64,000 nt of DNA from Bacillota bacterium (GTDB taxonomy: Bacteria; Bacillota; Sulfobacillia; JAJZYS01; JAJZLH01), in NCBI GenBank assembly GCA_021850485.1, contig JAJZLY010000002.1, positions 30,303 to 94,302 on the forward strand, given 5' to 3'. Numbering within the stretch: position 1 is the stretch's first letter; each line of letters opens with the position of its first letter. A model generated the notes under the pieces. The model was not told the DNA's origin. It made no database searches and saw only the letters and a list, made by a program, of their open reading frames with translations. Shown piece by piece: positions 27,916-62,161 of the stretch. The position numbers were made by a program, and so were the translations under genes.

Positions 27916-29250
27916 TCAGTTCAAAAGGCAGCGGGCCAAAATCTCCGCGACCTCAGCCAATCGCTGAGCGGGCAAGGTCCGCACATCCACCACGATCATG
28001 CCACCTTCGACCTGGACCAGCAACGCGACCGCACCCTGGCGCAGCTCTGCCTGCACGGCCGATGCGGATTTGGGCCGTGGGTCGATGGCGACTGCCACGC
28101 CTGGCAGCTCTACATCGGGCATGCTGCCGCCACCGGCGACGCCCCCCTTTGGCCGGACAGAGGCCTGCACGCCGCGCCGCTTCAGGTGGGCGATCAGTCT
28201 CTTGGCCTGCCTGCGCAGGGCGCCTGGGTCGGCTGTCACCATCTGGCGCACCGGGATCTGGTCCGGTTCCACCAGGGTCTGCCACAAGGTAGCCCGCAGT
28301 GCTGCTAAAGTCATCTTATCCGGCCGCAGTGCCCGGTAGAGCGGATGTCTTTTCATCTGGTCGATCACCGTCAGGCGGCCGACGGCAATGCCAGCCTGTG
28401 GCCCTCCGAGCAGTTTATCGCCGGAAAAGGTGACGACGTCTGCGCCCTGGCGCACCCGGCTGGCGACATCGGGCTCCGCGGGCAGCGGCAGCAGGCTGCC
28501 ACTGCCCAGGTCATCGATCATCACCAGGTGATGGGTATGGGCCAACTGGGCCAGTGCCAGAGGATCGGCTTGCTCGGTGAAGCCGCGGATCTGGAAATTC
28601 GACGGATGGACACGCAATAAGGCGGCGGTGTTCGGTCCGATCGCCCGCTCATAGTCAGCCAGCCGCGTGCGGTTGGTGGTGCCCACCTCAACCAGTTCGG
28701 TTCCGGAGGCCGCCATGATGTCGGGCACCCGAAAAGAGCCGCCAATCTCCACCAGTTCGCCGCGCGAGATCACCACCTGGCGGCCTTGGGTGAGGGTGAT
28801 CAGGGCCAAGAAGACGGCGGCGGCGTTGTTGTTCACCACCACTGCCGCCTCGGCGCCGGTCAAAAGTGTGAGGAGCGACTGCAGGTGGTCTTGGCGGCTG
28901 GAGCGGTGTCCGGACAGGAGATCGAACTCCAAGTCGCTGTAGCCGAGTGCTGCCCGGGCGGCCATGGCGGCAGCACGCTCGGACAACGGCGCTCGGCCGA
29001 TGTTGGTGTGAATCACCACCCCGGTCCCGTTCAAGATCTCGGTCAGACCCGGGCCAGATCGGGCCACGGCCTGCTGCACGCGCCTCGCCAGCTCGCTCTC
29101 GGCGATCGGCTCATGGGTTTTTGTGAGCGTCGCTCTGGCCTGCGCCAGTTCGGCCTCAATCAGGCTCACCCACAACCGATTGGCTGGCAGTGAGGTCAGC
29201 TCCAACAGACGGGTGACAGAGGGCAACTGGCGGCGCGGGTCATCGGTCAT
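27916..29250 (-). CDS. selA: L-seryl-tRNA(Sec) selenium transferase SelA
   Basis: 444 aa. The PLP enzyme converts seryl-tRNA(Sec) to selenocysteinyl-tRNA(Sec). Family marks are INGTGVVIHTNIGRAPLS-like LNGTGVVIHTNIGRAPLS, NNNAAAVFLAL, MIDDLGSGSLL and the PLP-lysine motif TFSGDKLLGGPQAG. It is followed by selD. selB and the tRNA-Sec gene are not in this window. Its start overlaps the end of the deacetylase gene by 11 bases. Confidence 0.96.
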   Translation of the reverse strand: MTDDPRRQLPSVTRLLELTSLPANRLWVSLIEAELAQARATLTKTHEPIAESELARRVQQAVARSGPGLTEILNGTGVVIHTNIGRAPLSERAAAMAARAALGYSDLEFDLLSGHRSSRQDHLQSLLTLLTGAEAAVVVNNNAAAVFLALITLTQGRQVVISRGELVEIGGSFRVPDIMAASGTELVEVGTTNRTRLADYERAIGPNTAALLRVHPSNFQIRGFTEQADPLALAQLAHTHHLVMIDDLGSGSLLPLPAEPDVASRVRQGADVVTFSGDKLLGGPQAGIAVGRLTVIDQMKRHPLYRALRPDKMTLAALRATLWQTLVEPDQIPVRQMVTADPGALRRQAKRLIAHLKRRGVQASVRPKGGVAGGGSMPDVELPGVAVAIDPRPKSASAVQAELRQGAVALLVQVEGGMIVVDVRTLPAQRLAEVAEILARCLLN

Positions 29251-53450: not shown

Positions 53451-54035
53451 CTAGACCCACCACTTGTAGCCGAGGGCTGTGTTGAGGGTCACGCCGAAGG
53501 TCAGGTACATCAGCCAGAAGGCAAGCACGAACTGGATCAGTCCGACGATCTTGCCACCGGCCGGCAAGGCACCGAAACGGGCCGGGATCTCGAACAGGTA
53601 GATCAGGGCCAGGCCGATGAACAAGATCATCACCGGGGTGTCCCCGGCGCCACTGAATACCATGGCGCCCAGCACGGACAGGAAGAAGAACGCAATCGCC
53701 ATCCAGGCGTCCGGCGCCGCGCTGGCGCCTTCGGCCCGTCTGCGACCCAGCACCAACCAGTGGGTGCCGTAGGATGTGAAGGCCACGGCCGCCATATAGA
53801 GCGGTGCGGCATAGGCATATACCGGGAACCAGCTGAGTCCGACCATTAGGTAGACACCGGTGATCAGCTGCAAGAAACCGGGCATCCAGACACCCCAGTA
53901 GCCCATGGTCTTGTCGACCTCGGGCGTTGCCTTGGGGAAACCGAACAGGGCCTGGCCTCCCCAGATAAAGTAGCCGGTACCGAGGCCAAAGAAGCCGATT
54001 GCAACTGGCCAGAAATGAGACTGTGCCAGTACCAT
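53451..54035 (-). CDS. Six-helix membrane protein, probable acetate-transporter (GPR1/FUN34/YaaH)-like
   Basis: 194 aa with about six helices. FTSYGTHWLVLGRRR aligns by eye with the FSSYGAFWLS region of YaaH proteins, and length and topology match; the NPAPLG signature is absent. It may be a divergent paralogue of the transporter at 59253. GGGAGGCGACTCG precedes the ATG. It follows the formate dehydrogenase operon after a 160-base gap. Confidence 0.6.
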   Translation of the reverse strand: MVLAQSHFWPVAIGFFGLGTGYFIWGGQALFGFPKATPEVDKTMGYWGVWMPGFLQLITGVYLMVGLSWFPVYAYAAPLYMAAVAFTSYGTHWLVLGRRRAEGASAAPDAWMAIAFFFLSVLGAMVFSGAGDTPVMILFIGLALIYLFEIPARFGALPAGGKIVGLIQFVLAFWLMYLTFGVTLNTALGYKWWV

Positions 54036-54196: not shown

Positions 54197-55060
54197 TTAG
54201 ACCTGCTTAGCGGCTCCCGCCGGTTCGTCTTCAGCCTCAACAAAACTGTACCCGTAGCGGCCTTTGACACATAGGAACCCGAGCGTGATGGGGTGTTGGT
54301 CTGGACTGGTCACCTTCACGATCTCGTTGCGCTCCCGGTCAACGTGCATGTCCAGCTGGCAGCCAACGCCGCAGTAGCCACAGGTCGTCTGAACGATGTC
54401 TTGGCGGCTCTCGTCCCAGCGTCCTTGCTCACGCATGCTGTGCTCGCGCCGATCCATCAGCGCTCCCGTCGGACAGACCTCCACACAGTTTCCGCAGAAG
54501 ACGCAGGCCGACTCCACCAGCGTCTCGTCAAAACCGGCCGAGATGCCCGCCGTAAACCCGCGGCCGGCCACAGTCAGGGCGAACGTATTCTGCACGTCCG
54601 GGCCGCAGGCCTCGACACAGCGGTAGCACAAGATGCACTTGTCGAAGTCACGCACATACAGCTTGTTGTCGTCGAAGAACCCGCGGTCGTAGCGCTGGCC
54701 GCGATAGCGGTCTGGGTCTGCACCCAGCGCCTCGGCCTGGCTGACCAGACCCGGGGCAGTCGAAACATCATTTTGGCTCAGCAGCAACTCAAACACGCCG
54801 CGCCGTGCATTTTGCACCCGCTCGGAATCGGTCCGCACCTCCATACCTGGCTCCACCTTGCGCTCGCAGGACGCGACCAACGGACGGCTCCCCTTGAGCT
54901 CGACCACGCACGCCCGACAGGTCTTCGCTGGTGTCAAGTGCTGGTGCGTGCATAAGGTCGGCGTTTCCACCTCCTGACGCCGCAACACCGTGAGAATGGT
55001 CTCGCCCGGCCGGGCGGGGGCTGGCCTGCCATCGATCAGAATCGTGAACTCTTCTGCCAT
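54197..55060 (-). CDS. Formate dehydrogenase iron-sulfur subunit carrying the Mo-subunit [4Fe-4S] domain at its C-terminus
   Basis: 287 aa. A [2Fe-2S] ferredoxin domain has Cys37, 48, 51, 65. A two-cluster ferredoxin domain follows: CILCYRCVEAC (142-152) and CVFCGNCVEVCP (186-196). The C-terminus is TTCGYCGVGCQL (Cys227, 230, 234) with Cys264 in GFLCVKGRYGYSF. That last block is the [4Fe-4S] start domain normally fused to the catalytic chain of formate dehydrogenase, which is missing it here. Last gene of the fdh operon. AGGGGGGAATC precedes the ATG. Confidence 0.9.
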   Translation of the reverse strand: MAEEFTILIDGRPAPARPGETILTVLRRQEVETPTLCTHQHLTPAKTCRACVVELKGSRPLVASCERKVEPGMEVRTDSERVQNARRGVFELLLSQNDVSTAPGLVSQAEALGADPDRYRGQRYDRGFFDDNKLYVRDFDKCILCYRCVEACGPDVQNTFALTVAGRGFTAGISAGFDETLVESACVFCGNCVEVCPTGALMDRREHSMREQGRWDESRQDIVQTTCGYCGVGCQLDMHVDRERNEIVKVTSPDQHPITLGFLCVKGRYGYSFVEAEDEPAGAAKQV

Positions 55061-55072
55061 GATGATTCCCCC

Positions 55073-56296
55073 CTAGTGTGCGAGCAGGCCGGCAGACTCG
55101 GCATCCATCAAACTGCGGACCGCTGTGGCTGCGGTCTGACCGAGCCCACAGATCGAGGCGTCTGTCATCACCTGGCTGAGCCGGAGCAAGAGACCACGCT
55201 CATCCCCCTGCCCTCGGCCTGCGGCCAGCGTGGCAAGCATCTCGTGCTGGCGCCGGGTGCCGACCCGGCAAGGTACGCACTGTCCGCAAGATTCGTGAGC
55301 AAAGAACCGACCCAGGCGCTCCGCCACCTGCCACAGATTGGTCTGACGGTTGAAGGCAATGACTGCGCCCGAGCCAAGGGTGGTGTGACGCTCCGCCACA
55401 CCTTCGTAGCTAAGCGCCAGATCGAAGTCTTTGGGGAACACAAAGGTGCCTGCGGCGCCGCCCATCAAGACGGCCTGCAGATCCGCTTCACCGCCTGCCA
55501 TCTGCAGCAGTTCACTCAGCGGCGTGCCAAAGGGCACTTCGTAGGTGTCCGGTCTGGCCACGTGCCCAGAGACCGAAAAGAGCTTTGTTCCAGGCGAACG
55601 TTCGGTTCCCCGGCTACGCAGGGCCTTCGCGCCAAAGGCGATGATGTCCGGCACGTTGGCGATGGTCTCTACGTTGTTGACTACCGTTGGCTTGCGAAAA
55701 AGACCGGCCACGGTGGGAAAGGGTGGCTTGGCCATAGGTTCGCCGCGGTATCCCTCGATCGAACGGAAGAGCGCTGTCTCTTCACCGCAGATGTAGGCAC
55801 CCCCACCCCGGCGAATCTCCACCCGCAGGGGGCGGCCTTGCGGCTCGATACCCTCGAGATGGCCTGCCTGCTGCAGCTCCCTGAGGCTTTGCTGCAAGAG
55901 ATCAGCTACCCGCCCGTACTCGCCGCGCACGTAGATGTAGGCGCCGGTGGCCGACACGGCATAGCAGGCGATCAACAAGCCCTCCAGCACCATGAACGGG
56001 TCCGACTCAATCATCACCCGGTCCTTGAAGGTCCCGGGTTCGCTCTCATCGGTGTTCAGGACAACGTAGCGGATGGGGTCTTTGGCGGTGCGTACCGACT
56101 CCCACTTGCGACCCGCCGGGAAGGCGGCGCCACCGCGACCGACCAAACCACTATCGGTCAAGATCCGCACCGTCTCCTCGGGTCCGATGGCACGAGCTTT
56201 GGCCAGTGCCGCCAATCCGCCTGAAGCGACGTAGGCCTTCAGGTTGCGCTGTTCGGCGCCCCGGCGACGGAGCAATACCGCCTCATGCATGGCCAT
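55073..56296 (-). CDS. NuoF/FdhB-like NADH-binding flavoprotein subunit
   Basis: 407 aa from MAMHEAVLLRRRG. The FMN/NADH site is SGLVGRGGAAFPAGRKWE; GGGAYICGEETALFRSIEG is the NADH-binding loop, and the [4Fe-4S] ligands are in ESCGQCVPCRVGTRR plus the cysteine of SICGLGQTA. It moves electrons between the formate site and NAD. The N-terminal ~45 residues of NuoF are shorter than in complex I. Its start overlaps the NuoE gene; ATG at 56296 or 56290 are both possible. Confidence 0.9.
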   Translation of the reverse strand: MAMHEAVLLRRRGAEQRNLKAYVASGGLAALAKARAIGPEETVRILTDSGLVGRGGAAFPAGRKWESVRTAKDPIRYVVLNTDESEPGTFKDRVMIESDPFMVLEGLLIACYAVSATGAYIYVRGEYGRVADLLQQSLRELQQAGHLEGIEPQGRPLRVEIRRGGGAYICGEETALFRSIEGYRGEPMAKPPFPTVAGLFRKPTVVNNVETIANVPDIIAFGAKALRSRGTERSPGTKLFSVSGHVARPDTYEVPFGTPLSELLQMAGGEADLQAVLMGGAAGTFVFPKDFDLALSYEGVAERHTTLGSGAVIAFNRQTNLWQVAERLGRFFAHESCGQCVPCRVGTRRQHEMLATLAAGRGQGDERGLLLRLSQVMTDASICGLGQTAATAVRSLMDAESAGLLAH

Positions 56297-56750
56297 CACC
56301 GATGCCTGCGATATCGTGGCGATGCAAGGGTGCGAGCGGCTCCTCACGATACAGCGCCGCCGGCGCCTGGTCGCACAACCCCAGGCAGGCACAGCGCGTC
56401 CAGGACACTGCACCGTCAGCGCCGGGCTGACCTTCGGGGCCGAGTGTACGCTCCGCCTCGGCGACCAGTTCTTCAGACCCGTGCAAGCAACAGGGAACAT
56501 CCTCGCAGATGCGCAAGACGTTGCGCCCTACCGGATGCTCAGTCAGCAGATCATAGAAGGTGACGACCCCATAGGTGTCGGCCACCGGCACATTCATCCG
56601 CTGCTCGATGGTCTCGGCAGCCGCTCTCGGAATGTGGTGGAACTCTGCTTGAACCTTGTGCAGGACCTCAAGAAGCTGGGTACGTTCTGTTCCGGTCTCG
56701 TCGATCAGCTCGCCAACCCGGTTCATGATCTCTCGCCCTGGTTCAGGCAT
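56283..56750 (-). CDS. NuoE-like [2Fe-2S] subunit of formate dehydrogenase
   Basis: 155 aa from MPEPGREIMNRVGELI. The thioredoxin-like [2Fe-2S] domain has cysteines in CEDVPCCLHG and CACLGLCDQAPA. HHIPRAAAETIEQ and YGVVTFYDLLTEHPVG are typical of NuoE. It pairs with the NuoF-like subunit. It overlaps the catalytic gene by 8 bases. Confidence 0.9.
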   Translation of the reverse strand: MPEPGREIMNRVGELIDETGTERTQLLEVLHKVQAEFHHIPRAAAETIEQRMNVPVADTYGVVTFYDLLTEHPVGRNVLRICEDVPCCLHGSEELVAEAERTLGPEGQPGADGAVSWTRCACLGLCDQAPAALYREEPLAPLHRHDIAGIGDGHA

Positions 56751-58710
56751 GATGGCTGTCAACCGCCTCTCCGACTGCGTGGCCGACAGGTACGGCTGCC
56801 CGCACCCGCTCGATGTGGATCGCCGTCGCCTTGAACTCAGCCGTGCCCGCCACCGGATCAGTGGCGTCCAAGGTGAGCAGGTTGGTGGCAACTTCATCGG
56901 GATAGTTCAGGCTCATGAACACTAGGCCCGGATGCACTTTTCGACTGCGGGTGACCCGCACCTCAAGCGTGGCTCGTCTGGAGCTGACCCGGCAGAGGTC
57001 TCCTTCTTCCAGGCACAGCTTCTCCATGTCCTCGCTGCACATCTCGAGTTTCTCGTGGTGGCCGCGCGGCGCAGCGTAGTGGCGGGTCTGCACGCCTGTG
57101 TTGAAGGCGGCCAGCCGACGTCCCGTGGTCAGCATGAAAGGAAATTCCTGATCCACCTGCTCGGCGGTCGGCTCATGGTCGGCCACCACAAACGGAGCCC
57201 GCTTCCCGACAACCGGTCTCTCCCAAAGCCTGGCGTGCAGGAACGGCGATCCCGCGTGCCCTTCGCTGGGGCACGGCCACTGAATACCGCCGAGCTCTTC
57301 GAGACGGGCGTAGGACATCCCCGTGTGCATCGGCGAAAGTGAGCGCAACTCGTCCCAGGTCTGCTCAGCCGTGCGATGGCTCCAGCCCGGCGTGTGCATG
57401 CGCATCGCCAGCTCCTCGACGATCCACAGGTCGTCCCTGGCTTCACCCGGCGGCTTCAGGGCCGGCCGCATCCGCTGCACTCGCCTTTCTGAACTAGTCA
57501 CCGTGCCTTCGCCCTCCGCCCAGCTGGCTGTCGCTGGCAAAACGACGTCGGCTCGCTCGCCGGTCGGCGTCAGGAAGATGTCCTGGACCAGTAGGAAGTC
57601 GAGCCCGTCGAACAGAGAGCGCACATGGTTGAGGTTTGCCTCGGACTGGATCGGGTTCTCTCCAATCACGTATAGGGCACGAATCTGCCCCTCAGCCATG
57701 GCTTCGAACATGGCTGTCTGGTGCTTGCCGACCTTCTCCGGAACCGCCACGCCCCACACATCTGCGAAGCGCTTGCGGATATCTGGGTCGAGGAGATTCT
57801 GGAACCCTGGCAGGCGATTGGGTAGGGCGCCCATGTCGCCGCCGCCCTGAACATTGTTCTGGCCGCGCAAGGGGGCCAGGCCACTCCCGTAGCGACCGAC
57901 ATGCCCGGTCAAAAGGGCCAAGTTGATCAAGGCGTGCACGTTTTGCACGGCGTTGTGGTGCTCGGTAATGCCAAGGGTCCAGCACAAGATCGCCCGCTCG
58001 GAATGGGCGTACAAGCGGGCCAACTCACGTACAGAGTCGGCGGGGACGCCGGTGATATCCTCTACGTCCTCCGGGCGATAGCTCTGCACCGTGTTCTGAT
58101 AGGCCTCAAAGCCTTCGGTTGCGGCTTCGATGAATTCTGTGTTCTGGAGCCCTTCTTCCAAGATGACGTGGCCGACGGCGTTAGCGAGGGCCACATCGCC
58201 CCCCACGTTCACCGGCAGATACATGCTGGCGAACTCGCTTCCAGAGATCCGCCGCGGATCGACGATCACGAGCTTGGCGCCGCGCCGGCGCACCGCCTTC
58301 ATCATGTGGTGGAACATGACCGGATGGGCCTCTCTGGCGTTAGAGCCCCACAGGATGATCAGGTCCGTGTCTTCCATCTCTTGATACGAAACCGTCCCGC
58401 CGCCGGAGCCAAACGCTGTCGCAAGACCTGCGACACTGGGGGCGTGTCAGGTACGGTTACAGCTGTCGATGTTGTTGGTGCCGATCGCCGTTCGCATAAA
58501 CTTCTGGGCCAGGAAATTGAGTTCGTTGCTGGACTTCGAGCAGCTAAAGCAGCCAAATGCCTCTGGGCCATGCTTCTTCTTGACTCGCTCCAATCCAGCC
58601 ACGGCCCGGGTCAGCGCCTCGTCCCAAGACGCCTGCCGGAGCTTCCCATTGTCCCGAACCAAGGGATGAAGGAGTCGACCCTGTGCGGATCCGGTCATCG
58701 GAATCGCCAT
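56743..58710 (-). CDS. fdhA: Formate dehydrogenase catalytic subunit, selenocysteine-containing, lacking its N-terminal [4Fe-4S] domain
   Basis: 655 aa when TGA at 58449-58447 is read as Sec88. The context NIDSCNRT-U-HAPSVAGL is the active-site consensus of Mo/W-bis-PGD formate dehydrogenases, with the catalytic His next to Sec. Following motifs are WGSNAREAHPV, IVDPRR, LRGQNNVQGGGDMG, and a C-terminal cofactor domain. The chain starts MAIPMTGSAQGRLLHPLVR, equivalent to just after the [4Fe-4S] domain of E. coli FdhF, so that domain is absent; a matching domain ends the 54197-55060 protein. ORF callers see two pieces because of the UGA. Confidence 0.95.
58417..58435 (-). promoter_or_regulatory. 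Bacterial SECIS element of fdhA
   Basis: TGTCGCA-GGTCT-TGCGACA on the minus strand: a perfect 7-bp stem with a GGUCU loop, 11 nt after the UGA. The E. coli fdhF SECIS also uses a GGUCU loop. Confidence 0.93.
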
Positions 58711-58711
58711 C

Positions 58712-58846
58712 CTAACTCACCTTCCTTTGCGTTGCGGATGGGGACCGCACCTCACTGGACAGTGCTGAGCAGGGGCGGCCATCGGAGTCCACCCTGGCCC
58801 GGAGCCGACGCTCGACCTCCGGTGCGTCGGTGGCGATCGCAACCAT
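58712..58846 (-). CDS. Small ORF of 44 aa ahead of fdhA, function unknown
   Basis: Begins MVAIATDAPEVERRLRARVD after GGAGGTGGGGACA, ends with TAG one base before the fdhA ATG. The sequence is charged and soluble-looking. The ribosome site and position support translation; I recognise no family. It may also work mainly as a translated leader coupling fdhA. Confidence 0.45.
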   Translation of the reverse strand: MVAIATDAPEVERRLRARVDSDGRPCSALSSEVRSPSATQRKVS

Positions 58847-58967
58847 TGTCCCCACCTCCATGCCCGGAGCGATTTGACGTCCGGGAAGATTGCCAAAAGA
58901 TCAATTAAACTCGCTGTTGCCGTTCTCCTTCGCCGAGACATCTCCTTCTGACATGGATCGCATTTAT

Positions 58968-59147
58968 TCAGTCGTCCAGCGGCCCGAACAGCGTCTCCTC
59001 GACGTCCTCCATCTCGCCATCTGGCCAAGACACGGTCAGGGTTCTCATGAGACACGCCGGGTTGCGCGTCACCTCTAAGACGGTGCCGACGCGGCCCTGG
59101 CTAGCACCTGGGCGAGGATCTGTCACCTGGTCCCCTACGCTCAGCAT
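58968..59147 (-). CDS. Small 59-aa protein, SH3/KOW-like, function unknown
   Basis: Begins MLSVGDQVTDPRPG and continues GRVGTVLEVTRNP, then LTVSWPDGEMEDVEETLFGPL. The short alternating strands with G-D/G-x-V turns resemble small SH3-like or Tudor-like barrels. AAGGGAG lies 6 bases before the ATG. It lies between the acetate transporter and the fdh genes, so a link to formate/acetate metabolism is possible but unproven. Confidence 0.7.
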   Translation of the reverse strand: MLSVGDQVTDPRPGASQGRVGTVLEVTRNPACLMRTLTVSWPDGEMEDVEETLFGPLDD

Positions 59148-59252: not shown

Positions 59253-59852
59253 CTAGGAAGGCATCGCAGAGGGAGGCGTTTTGGTTAGGTCCTGCCGCTT
59301 TGGCATGCCAAGCGGAAGGACTACTTTGCCGTGCACCTCGTTGATCACCTGGGCGGCCGAAGCGTAAAAGGCCAAGATGGCCGTGATCAGGCCGACGTAT
59401 CCGCCGATCTGAGTCAGCGAGCCGACACCGAAAGCACCGGCCGCCAAGAGCACGAAGGTCAGCCACAGGGCCAAGAACACCAGGTTCAAGGCCGTGTTGA
59501 TCTTCATGGCGCCGATCCACATGTAGAACGTGAAGATTCCCCACATCAGCAGATACCAAGCCACGAACGGGCCCGGAACGCCCTTGCCAAAGACACCGGC
59601 GAACAAGGCGAAGGACAACCAGAAGGCACCGTATGAGAAGAACGCCACGGTTCCGAAGGTGTTGCCGTTGGCATATTCCATCACACCGGCGGCCAACTGG
59701 GCCAGGCCACCGTAGGCGAAGGCCAGGGCCAACACCAGTCCTAGGCCTGTTCCCGGGTACCAACCAGCGTTGATCATGCTCAGCATCCAGGTCGTCAGGG
59801 CGAAGCCTGCGAGGCCCAGCGGAGCGGGGTTCGCTTTCAGGTTCAAGATCAC
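59253..59852 (-). CDS. Acetate uptake transporter, GPR1/FUN34/YaaH (SatP) family
   Basis: 199 aa from GTG (VILNLKANPAPLG) with AAGGAG six bases upstream. NPAPLGLAGFALTTW is the family signature; GNTFGTVAFFSYGAFWLS is the conserved mid region. Six membrane helices are visible. Takes up acetate/succinate with protons. It follows acs, which activates the imported acetate. Confidence 0.92.
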   Translation of the reverse strand: MILNLKANPAPLGLAGFALTTWMLSMINAGWYPGTGLGLVLALAFAYGGLAQLAAGVMEYANGNTFGTVAFFSYGAFWLSFALFAGVFGKGVPGPFVAWYLLMWGIFTFYMWIGAMKINTALNLVFLALWLTFVLLAAGAFGVGSLTQIGGYVGLITAILAFYASAAQVINEVHGKVVLPLGMPKRQDLTKTPPSAMPS

Positions 59853-59934
59853 AACACACTCCTTACGCATCATCATGTAGCGGTGCTTCCACAAGCAGTG
59901 AGCGCGGATCGGAAATCAGGATCCTGCCGTTGGG

Positions 59935-61971
59935 TTAGCCAGCCTGGTGGATCTTTTGAATCTGTTCGACCATCTCCGGATTGGCCAGGGTGGTGATGTC
60001 CCCGGTGTCCGGGTTGTTGTTGGAGATCGCCGCTAAAATGCGGCGCATGATCTTGCCAGACCGTGTCTTGGGCAGATCTGGCACCAGCCACACCTTTCTG
60101 GGTCGGGCAATCGGCCCGATCTCCTTGGCGATGGCGTCCGAGACCTTCTTGGCCATTTCGGCGCTAGCCGCCACGCCTGGCTGCAACGAAACATAGATCT
60201 CAGGCATGACGCCCTTGATGTCATCTTTGGCTGCGACAACGGCCGCCTCGGCGACACCCGGCACGGTTAGGGCTGCCGACTCCAGTTCCTTGGTTCCCAG
60301 CCGGTGACCGGCCACGTTGATCACGTCGTCGATCCGGCCCAGGATCCGGTAATAGCCGTCTGCTGCCAGCATGGCGCCATCGCCGGCGAAGTAGGGCCAG
60401 TCGCGCCAGTCTTTGCTCTTGGGGTCTTTGTTGTACTTGGCGAAGTAGGTGGCCACGAAGCGGTCCGGGTCATGCCAGATGCCCTGGAACATACCCGGCC
60501 ACGGGTTTTGGATACAGATGTTGCCGGCCTTGCCGGTACCCGCCGGCATCTTGTTGCCATCCTCGTCCAGGATCATCGGATGGATACCGGGGATCGGTGG
60601 CCCAGCGCTGCCCGGCTTCATCTTGTCGACGGCTGGCACCGTAGAGCACAAGAAGCCGCCGTTTTCTGTCTGCCACCAAGTGTCGACGATCACGGCCTCG
60701 CCCTTGCCGACGACCTTGTGATACCACTTCCAGACATCCGGCTCGATCGGCTCGCCGACCGTGGTCATGTGCTTGAAGTGGTAGTTGTATTGCTCCGGAT
60801 TGCCGCCGCCGGCCTTGCGTAAGGCTCGGATCGAGGTCGGCGAGGTGTGGAAGATGTTGACCCCCAGTTCCTCGGCCACCCGCCAGGGCCGTCCGGCGTC
60901 GGGATAGGTCGGCGTTCCTTCGTAGATCACCGTGGAAGCGCCCAGTGCGAGCGGGCCGTAGACGATGTAGGAGTGCCCCGTGATCCAGCCGATGTCTGCC
61001 ATGCACCAGTACACATCATCCGGATGGATGTCTTGAATCATCTTCGAAGTCCAGGCGACGTAGGACAGGTAACCGCCGGTGCTGTGCTGGGCACCCTTGG
61101 GCCGGCCGGTTGATCCAGACGTGTACATCAAGAACAGGGGGTCCTCGGCTTTTACCGATACGGGATCGACCCGCTTGCCGCGAAAGGCTGCCAGGTTGTC
61201 GTTGACAACGACATCTCGGCCCGCCTTCAGCGGCGTCGGACTGGAATATTTGCCCGGATAGCGCTGCCAAACTAATACGGTTTCGACCTTTTGACCTTCG
61301 GCGGCGGCCTCGTCACAGGCGACGTCTGCTTTTTCCTTGTGGTCCAGCAGCGTACCAGCTCGGTAGTAGCCGTCCATGGTGATCAGGACGCGGCTACCGG
61401 AGTCCACGATTCTGCCGGCGCACGCCTTGGCGCTGAATCCGGCAAACACAACTGAGTGGATGGCTCCGAGCCGGGCCAGCGCCAGCATCGTAATCGGCAA
61501 CTCCGGCACCATCGGCATGTGGATGGTGACCCGATCCCCAGCCTTGACACCCACCTTGTCGCGCAAAAACGCTGCGAACTCGTTGACCCTGACCCACAAC
61601 TCCTGATAGGTCACATGCTCGATGTGCTCGTTCTCCGGCTCGGGTACGAAGTGAATCGCTGCCTTGTTGCGGTACTTCTCCAGGTGACGGTCCACACAGT
61701 TGTAGGAAACGTTCAGCCGACCACCCACGAACCACTTGTAGAAGGGTGGGTTGGAGGAATCCAACACCTGGTCCCACTTCTTGTCCCAACTCAGCAGGTT
61801 GGCGAAGTCCTCGTAGTAGGTCGGAAAGTTCTCCAAGCTGTATCGCTTGCGGATGTCCCGATCGGTGAGGTTGGCCTGGGCAATAAATGATTCCGGAGGA
61901 GAGAAATAGGCCTCCTCGCCCCAATGGACCGCAATTTCGGCTTCAGAGACACTGCTTGTTTCGTCGCTCAC
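59935..61971 (-). CDS. acs: Acetyl-CoA synthetase (AMP-forming)
   Basis: 678 aa from GTG (VSDETSSVSEAE) after GAGGAGG. LMYTSGSTGRPKGAQHST is the ATP/adenylation P-loop; DTWWQTENGGF, IDDVINVAGHRLGT and PKTRSGKIMRRIL (lysine that is acetylated in the family) are standard. It converts acetate to acetyl-CoA. It forms an apparent unit with the downstream transporter. Residues upstream in the longest ORF are not homologous. Confidence 0.96.
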   Translation of the reverse strand: MSDETSSVSEAEIAVHWGEEAYFSPPESFIAQANLTDRDIRKRYSLENFPTYYEDFANLLSWDKKWDQVLDSSNPPFYKWFVGGRLNVSYNCVDRHLEKYRNKAAIHFVPEPENEHIEHVTYQELWVRVNEFAAFLRDKVGVKAGDRVTIHMPMVPELPITMLALARLGAIHSVVFAGFSAKACAGRIVDSGSRVLITMDGYYRAGTLLDHKEKADVACDEAAAEGQKVETVLVWQRYPGKYSSPTPLKAGRDVVVNDNLAAFRGKRVDPVSVKAEDPLFLMYTSGSTGRPKGAQHSTGGYLSYVAWTSKMIQDIHPDDVYWCMADIGWITGHSYIVYGPLALGASTVIYEGTPTYPDAGRPWRVAEELGVNIFHTSPTSIRALRKAGGGNPEQYNYHFKHMTTVGEPIEPDVWKWYHKVVGKGEAVIVDTWWQTENGGFLCSTVPAVDKMKPGSAGPPIPGIHPMILDEDGNKMPAGTGKAGNICIQNPWPGMFQGIWHDPDRFVATYFAKYNKDPKSKDWRDWPYFAGDGAMLAADGYYRILGRIDDVINVAGHRLGTKELESAALTVPGVAEAAVVAAKDDIKGVMPEIYVSLQPGVAASAEMAKKVSDAIAKEIGPIARPRKVWLVPDLPKTRSGKIMRRILAAISNNNPDTGDITTLANPEMVEQIQKIHQAG

Positions 61972-62161
61972 AGTCGTCCTCCTCACACCCACCGTCTGCG
62001 CAGTCCGCCGCACGGCGGCCTTCACTCACGCCAGGAGCCAAGTTCTGACTATCCGAGCCCACATCGTGGGCGTATCGTCCCCTTCCCTGGGGCTGCGTAT
62101 CGGTGACCAGGCTTCTCCGTGGTCAGCCCCTGATAACCCGCGTGTATTACTTGGCCGATGG

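Follow-up and report, generated by a model that had tools for sequence, protein, structure and literature searches.

A predicted NAD-linked formate dehydrogenase whose metal-proximal [4Fe-4S] domain and catalytic domain are encoded by separate genes

All formate dehydrogenases are said to have a bis-MGD-binding subunit that also binds a proximal [4Fe-4S] cluster (PMC7171172; PMC10478512). Their catalytic set consists of a selenocysteine (Sec) or cysteine followed by histidine, together with an RGQ motif (PMC8808070), and in the solved enzymes a conserved lysine (K44 in Escherichia coli FdhF, K331 in MeFDH1) sits between the pterin and the proximal cluster (PMC10478512). The alpha chain of MeFDH1 contains three [4Fe-4S] clusters and one [2Fe-2S] cluster (PMC13397495), and a further cluster, A4, is located at the dimer interface of the Rhodobacter capsulatus enzyme (PMC7171172). 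A comparison of Sulfobacillus genomes describes Sec formate dehydrogenase genes beside NuoEFG-like genes and predicts NADH coupling (formate:NAD); in its excerpted text there is no remark on the proximal cluster domain residing on the NuoG-like gene (Justice et al. 2014, PMC4378227). A literature search confined to open-access full text, with most subscription journals outside it, returned no report of a formate dehydrogenase split in this way. The initial annotation of the locus described here took the usual NAD-linked enzyme to carry its ferredoxin domains, proximal cluster and catalytic domain on a single chain. In PDB sequence searches with both halves, the formate dehydrogenases that were matched were joined chains only, with no split chain among them.

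The locus lies in a 64,000-nucleotide stretch of DNA from a member of the Bacillota (the window), which belongs to a draft assembly of 33 contigs that is 97.2% complete. We consider it highly probable that the products of its four genes form a soluble Mo/W formate dehydrogenase that depends on Sec and reduces NAD+. Its FdsA-type alpha chain would be present in two parts, so that electrons would cross the interface between a catalytic subunit (CAT) and a cluster-bearing subunit (FeS).

Division of the alpha chain between two genes

The genes form a compact operon on the minus strand in the order CAT, NuoE-like, NuoF-like and FeS. CAT (56743-58710; 655 aa plus stop, 72 kDa) is a headless Mo/W-bis-MGD catalytic subunit that contains PF00384 and PF01568. 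It is followed by a NuoE-like [2Fe-2S] subunit of thioredoxin fold (56283-56750, minus strand; PF01257, 3.5e-32), a NuoF-like NAD/FMN/[4Fe-4S] diaphorase subunit (55073-56296, minus strand; PF01512, PF10531 and PF10589) and FeS (54197-55060, minus strand; 287 aa), a ferredoxin-type subunit whose C-terminal part is the metal-proximal [4Fe-4S] domain. CAT and NuoE, as well as NuoE and NuoF, overlap by a few bases, and a gap of 12 bases separates NuoF from FeS. The NuoE start codon was assigned from alignment and the overlap with CAT, as a longer ORF exists, and the NuoF start was assigned from alignments, its longest ORF beginning at 56500. No FdsD (delta) gene was recognized among the operon neighbors. 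The initial annotation gave the coordinates of CAT and FeS correctly, and it rightly placed the NuoE- and NuoF-like genes between the two halves.

The same annotation held that the catalytic Sec protein starts where the [4Fe-4S] domain normally ends and that this domain forms the C-terminus of FeS, and profile searches bear out both statements. The two proteins cover complementary parts of the Fdh-alpha model TIGR01591, with FeS matching positions 1-52 and CAT positions 51-672. Their scores (40.7 bits for FeS and 646.1 bits for CAT) are both below the curated single-chain cut-off of 666.25; CAT falls just under it, as expected, because the chain is without its head. In Pfam searches PF04879 is absent from CAT, whose N-terminus reads MAIPMTGSAQGRLLHPLVRDNGK. 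A hidden Fe4S4 domain upstream of CAT was ruled out, since the upstream sequence has no Fe4S4 cysteine motif and the frame meets an in-frame TGA stop a few codons before the ATG. Formate dehydrogenases are the top family, sequence and fold matches of CAT. In its AlphaFold2 model (pLDDT 85.5, pTM 0.86), residues 9-636 align with residues 56-693 of E. coli FdhF (Z 42), with residues 341-981 of MeFDH1 (Z 44.7) and with the R. capsulatus enzyme from residue 304, and in all three solved chains the match begins directly past the Fe4S4 domain. The U88-H89 pair and the R282-G-Q motif of CAT are invariant among the aligned sequences.

FeS contains a Fer2_4 domain (residues 3-79), two Fer4 clusters (139-201) and PF04879, Molybdop_Fe4S4 (222-275; 54236-54397, minus strand), the last with Cys227, Cys230, Cys234 and Cys264, which are invariant in 38 aligned split sequences. 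In total, 16 cysteines of FeS are invariant, corresponding to one [2Fe-2S] and three [4Fe-4S] clusters. Lys266 within the LCVKG motif (54263-54265, minus strand) is the equivalent of FdhF K44 and is likewise invariant in the alignment, and the stop codon follows about 20 codons past this motif. The structure model of FeS is too weak to read an interface from (pLDDT 69, pTM 0.55; TM about 0.4). Beyond what the initial annotation reported, FeS is also without the His/Cys3 cluster of most fused enzymes (A4, or N5 in complex I), whose motif is found in none of 101 split FeS proteins versus 21 of 24 fused ones; the fused rows without it are L050 and two MeFDH1-like rows (L156 and L158). As A4 is missing from the split FeS, dimerization in the manner of the R. 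capsulatus enzyme is improbable.

Two other identities for these proteins were considered and rejected. FeS is not the NuoG subunit of complex I, as it scores 134.5 bits with the NuoG model against a cut-off of 470 bits and the genome has a separate NuoG, adjoining a NuoF-like gene on contig C26. An electron-bifurcating formate dehydrogenase/[FeFe]-hydrogenase was ruled out because the NuoF-like protein has the 51K, SLBB and one [4Fe-4S] domain only, and among the genes examined there is no H-cluster subunit. In the whole genome the only other PF04879 domain is that of complex I NuoG. A second complete FdhA, which the initial annotation had named as something that would speak against its reading, was not found in this genome (97.2% complete).

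The UGA at 58447-58449 (minus strand) is the sole in-frame TGA of CAT and is predicted to be read as selenocysteine, the metal ligand at residue 88 (SCNRT-U-HAPSV). A SECIS-like hairpin (58417-58435, minus strand) presents a GGUCU loop that begins 18 nt past the UGA, and the same loop at +18 nt is found in nearly all TGA-bearing split loci and in E. coli fdhF, which served as a control. Taken alone, the hairpin of the window folds no better than shuffled sequences (z -0.11), and the SECIS call rests on the cross-locus comparison as the sole informative test. The genome encodes SelA (on the same contig, at about 27934-29232 of the window), SelB and tRNA-Sec (above threshold). With an in-frame UGA, a SECIS-like element and the Sec machinery, CAT is a predicted selenoprotein. 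Relatives in Streptomyces, Amycolatopsis and Nonomuraea carry Cys in place of Sec, and these actinobacterial members suggest that Sec was replaced by Cys inside the split clade. At L065 and other Streptomyces loci with Cys at the Sec site, the SECIS-like stem has decayed.

Directly upstream of the operon lie an acetate uptake transporter and acetyl-CoA synthetase (59253-62025, minus strand), an order that is kept in the congener locus L033. Between the acetate transporter and CAT are two short unannotated ORFs (58712-59147, minus strand; 59 aa and about 49 aa) with no Pfam match, the second of which extends to the start codon of CAT. Immediately past the downstream end of the operon, 53451-54035 (minus strand) encodes a 194-aa membrane protein that remains without a Pfam match at a threshold of E 10 and is 97% identical in L033, above the identity of the formate dehydrogenase subunits. 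It gives a weak colinear alignment with the acetate transporter (YaaH/SatP family; 59253-59894), with 31% identity over 111 aa (E 0.002). It is perhaps a divergent paralogue of that transporter, and possibly a formate or acetate channel.

Recurrence and phylogeny of the split

A search for other genomes with the same split, which the initial annotation had proposed, yielded about 100 independent loci in which the order CAT-NuoE-NuoF-FeS is nearly always kept and CAT is headless wherever the catalytic gene is present. Searching 101 related genomes with FeS revealed standalone relatives, and 20 loci from related genomes show this gene order, with every CAT headless and FeS terminating shortly past LCxKG. 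In the best 80 loci from named genomes, the FeS frame ends 7-37 residues past CxKG in 80 of 80, and CAT, whole or partial, lies upstream in the same order in 69. Split loci occur in at least eight phyla, as judged from the record title or NCBI lineage, and closed genomes and Streptomyces isolates are included. The groups are the Bacillota, Actinomycetota, Chloroflexota, Acidobacteriota, Vulcanimicrobiota/Eremiobacterota, Dormibacterota, Rokubacteria and Hyphomicrobiales (Pseudomonadota). Many of these loci come from MAGs, which carries a binning risk for each phylum, and more than 30 come from actinobacteria in culture. An even sample of 398 genomes from the window's phylum contains eight with a close FeS relative, closed genomes among them. 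Plasmid records, where annotated, hold the usual fused type.

The two halves are not adjacent everywhere. In two Chloroflexota MAGs (L069 and L104), NuoE, NuoF and FeS lie together with no adjoining CAT; the L069 genome has a headless CAT with TGA alone on another contig, and the L104 genome has a CAT fragment at the edge of another contig. The halves can therefore be unlinked. Beside the split FeS in L104, a single 643-aa ORF (L104:3054-4985) joins the NuoE and NuoF homologues. Three genomes of the same taxonomic order as the window (G007, G009 and G012) have both a split Sec formate dehydrogenase and a second, fused one with the A4 motif (loci L036-L038, L054, L149 and L150).

Maximum-likelihood trees were calculated for CAT (81 rows) and FeS (96 rows). 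Split CAT proteins form one clade apart from the sampled fused enzymes (SH-aLRT 100), as do split FeS proteins (SH-aLRT 92-93), with a modest sampling of fused enzymes that is centered on the window's class. A single clade for each half makes a single origin of the split probable, with long retention in many phyla; independent splits elsewhere, beyond the sampled fused enzymes, are possible. Together with the range of at least eight phyla, the single clade for each half points to a widespread old family, which refines the initial annotation in that the locus would not be a single-genome oddity. The break would lie in the loop immediately past LCxKGRxG. The nearest fused relative is L148 in the CAT tree and L050 in the FeS tree. 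L148 as the sister is rejected by the FeS data (p 0.0015), and the CAT tree favors L148 without rejecting L050 (p 0.31). Fission of an L050-like parent is one possible origin. Since the two trees give different nearest fused relatives, assembly from two different parents, and not simple fission, is another.

Proposed electron path and alternative readings

The initial annotation reasoned that the proximal cluster would be placed at a subunit interface, and domain assignments, alignments, phylogeny and recurrence agree with this; we infer from them that the four proteins physically assemble. The substrates would be formate and NAD+, the reaction presumably running toward formate oxidation, with Mo or W as the candidate metal. 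CAT would bind bis-MGD and oxidize formate at Sec88, His89 and Arg282. Electrons would then leave CAT, cross the subunit interface and enter FeS at its proximal [4Fe-4S] cluster (Cys227/230/234/264), with Lys266 of FeS placed between pterin and cluster. Within FeS, the two ferredoxin-like [4Fe-4S] clusters and the [2Fe-2S] cluster may relay them onward to the [4Fe-4S] cluster and FMN of NuoF and finally to NAD+, NuoE capping the diaphorase.

A looser association of the halves can be imagined, in which CAT is loaded with bis-MGD and Sec alone and only afterwards binds, perhaps reversibly, to a detachable unit that comprises the clusters and the NADH module. We regard this as rather unlikely. 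If it were true, the metal site and the first electron acceptor would need no covalent continuity in formate dehydrogenases, and the unlinked Chloroflexota genes would reflect interchangeable halves. Another unlikely alternative makes FeS-NuoF-NuoE a general NADH module that docks several catalytic partners, CAT being one of them and the halves meeting transiently. The separate CAT matches in the L069 and L104 genomes fit such a module, and it is known that several enzymes share HoxU- and HydA-type modules (PMC4967309), but in nearly all other loci CAT is directly upstream in one operon, the binning of these two MAGs may mislead, and FeS always keeps the four Cys and the Lys of the Mo-proximal cluster, residues for which a general NADH module would have no use.

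We judge it very unlikely that CAT is a molybdoenzyme that serves a non-formate substrate through the same NADH module. The motif SCNRT(U/C)HAPSV is specific to the split clade, where CNRT-U takes the place of the CAR[LTV]-U of the sampled fused enzymes, which would be consistent with a different substrate. Against this, the Sec/Cys-His and RGQ catalytic set is invariant, formate dehydrogenases are the best matches of CAT at every level compared, and FdhD is encoded in the genome. Finally, that an assembly or sequencing error broke a normal single-chain FdhA is vanishingly improbable: the draft state of the window's assembly is all that favors it, and chance and error, the latter raised by the initial annotation, are excluded by recurrence in about 100 independent loci. 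These keep the gene order and the three-gene distance between the halves, and they include closed genomes and many Streptomyces strains in culture.

On the preferred reading of a formate dehydrogenase with a divided alpha chain, the one-subunit rule seems not to hold in a clade that spans eight or more phyla and many Streptomyces strains in culture, and the exception falls on the electron-transfer step that matters most. The split lets one ask if electrons can still pass from Mo to the first cluster when an interface lies between the two, and it provides a natural system for separate loading or exchange of the metal site and the cluster, as well as parts for engineering CO2-reducing enzymes. 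It also adds fission to the ways in which modules have been shuffled between formate dehydrogenase, hydrogenase and complex I.

Comparison with known systems

Features of the Fds/MeFDH1 type that are present at the locus are the Mo/W-bis-MGD domain with its Sec-His and Arg residues and the NuoE-/NuoF-like diaphorase genes alongside. The feature that is absent is a proximal [4Fe-4S] cluster in the Mo/W subunit, whose domain sits on FeS instead. In its ferredoxin-type architecture, FeS resembles the N-terminal modules of NuoG and HoxU. In NuoG, the N7 domain corresponds to PF04879, and the chain runs on as a degenerate Mo domain; a Mo-proximal domain is missing from HoxU. E. coli FdhF (FDH-H, PDB 1fdi) shares with CAT the catalytic fold, Sec and the spacing of the SECIS loop, whereas it has no NADH module, and an Fe4S4 domain of its own precedes residue 56 on the one chain. 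FdsABGD of R. capsulatus and Cupriavidus necator (PDB 6tg9) has NuoE-/NuoF-like partners and combines ferredoxin-type and bis-MGD domains, with FeS matching residues 25-306 and CAT residues 304-933 of FdsA. However, FdsA is one chain, the enzyme has an FdsD subunit and, where its dimer halves meet, the extra A4 cluster (PMC7171172), and its operon is ordered fdsGBACD. MeFDH1 of Methylorubrum extorquens (PDB 7vw6 and 8j83) is similar to the split enzyme in the cluster inventory of FeS, the NAD+ module and the fold of CAT, and its relatives L156 and L158 are, like split FeS, without the His/Cys3 A4 cluster. It differs in that Cys stands in place of Sec, in that NuoE and NuoF are apparently fused in its relative L156, and in that a single alpha chain holds the ferredoxin domains, the proximal cluster and the W site. 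Judged by sequence, the split enzyme would thus be a variant of NAD-dependent formate dehydrogenase that departs from the family as described in one respect, in that its catalytic chain is without the proximal cluster.
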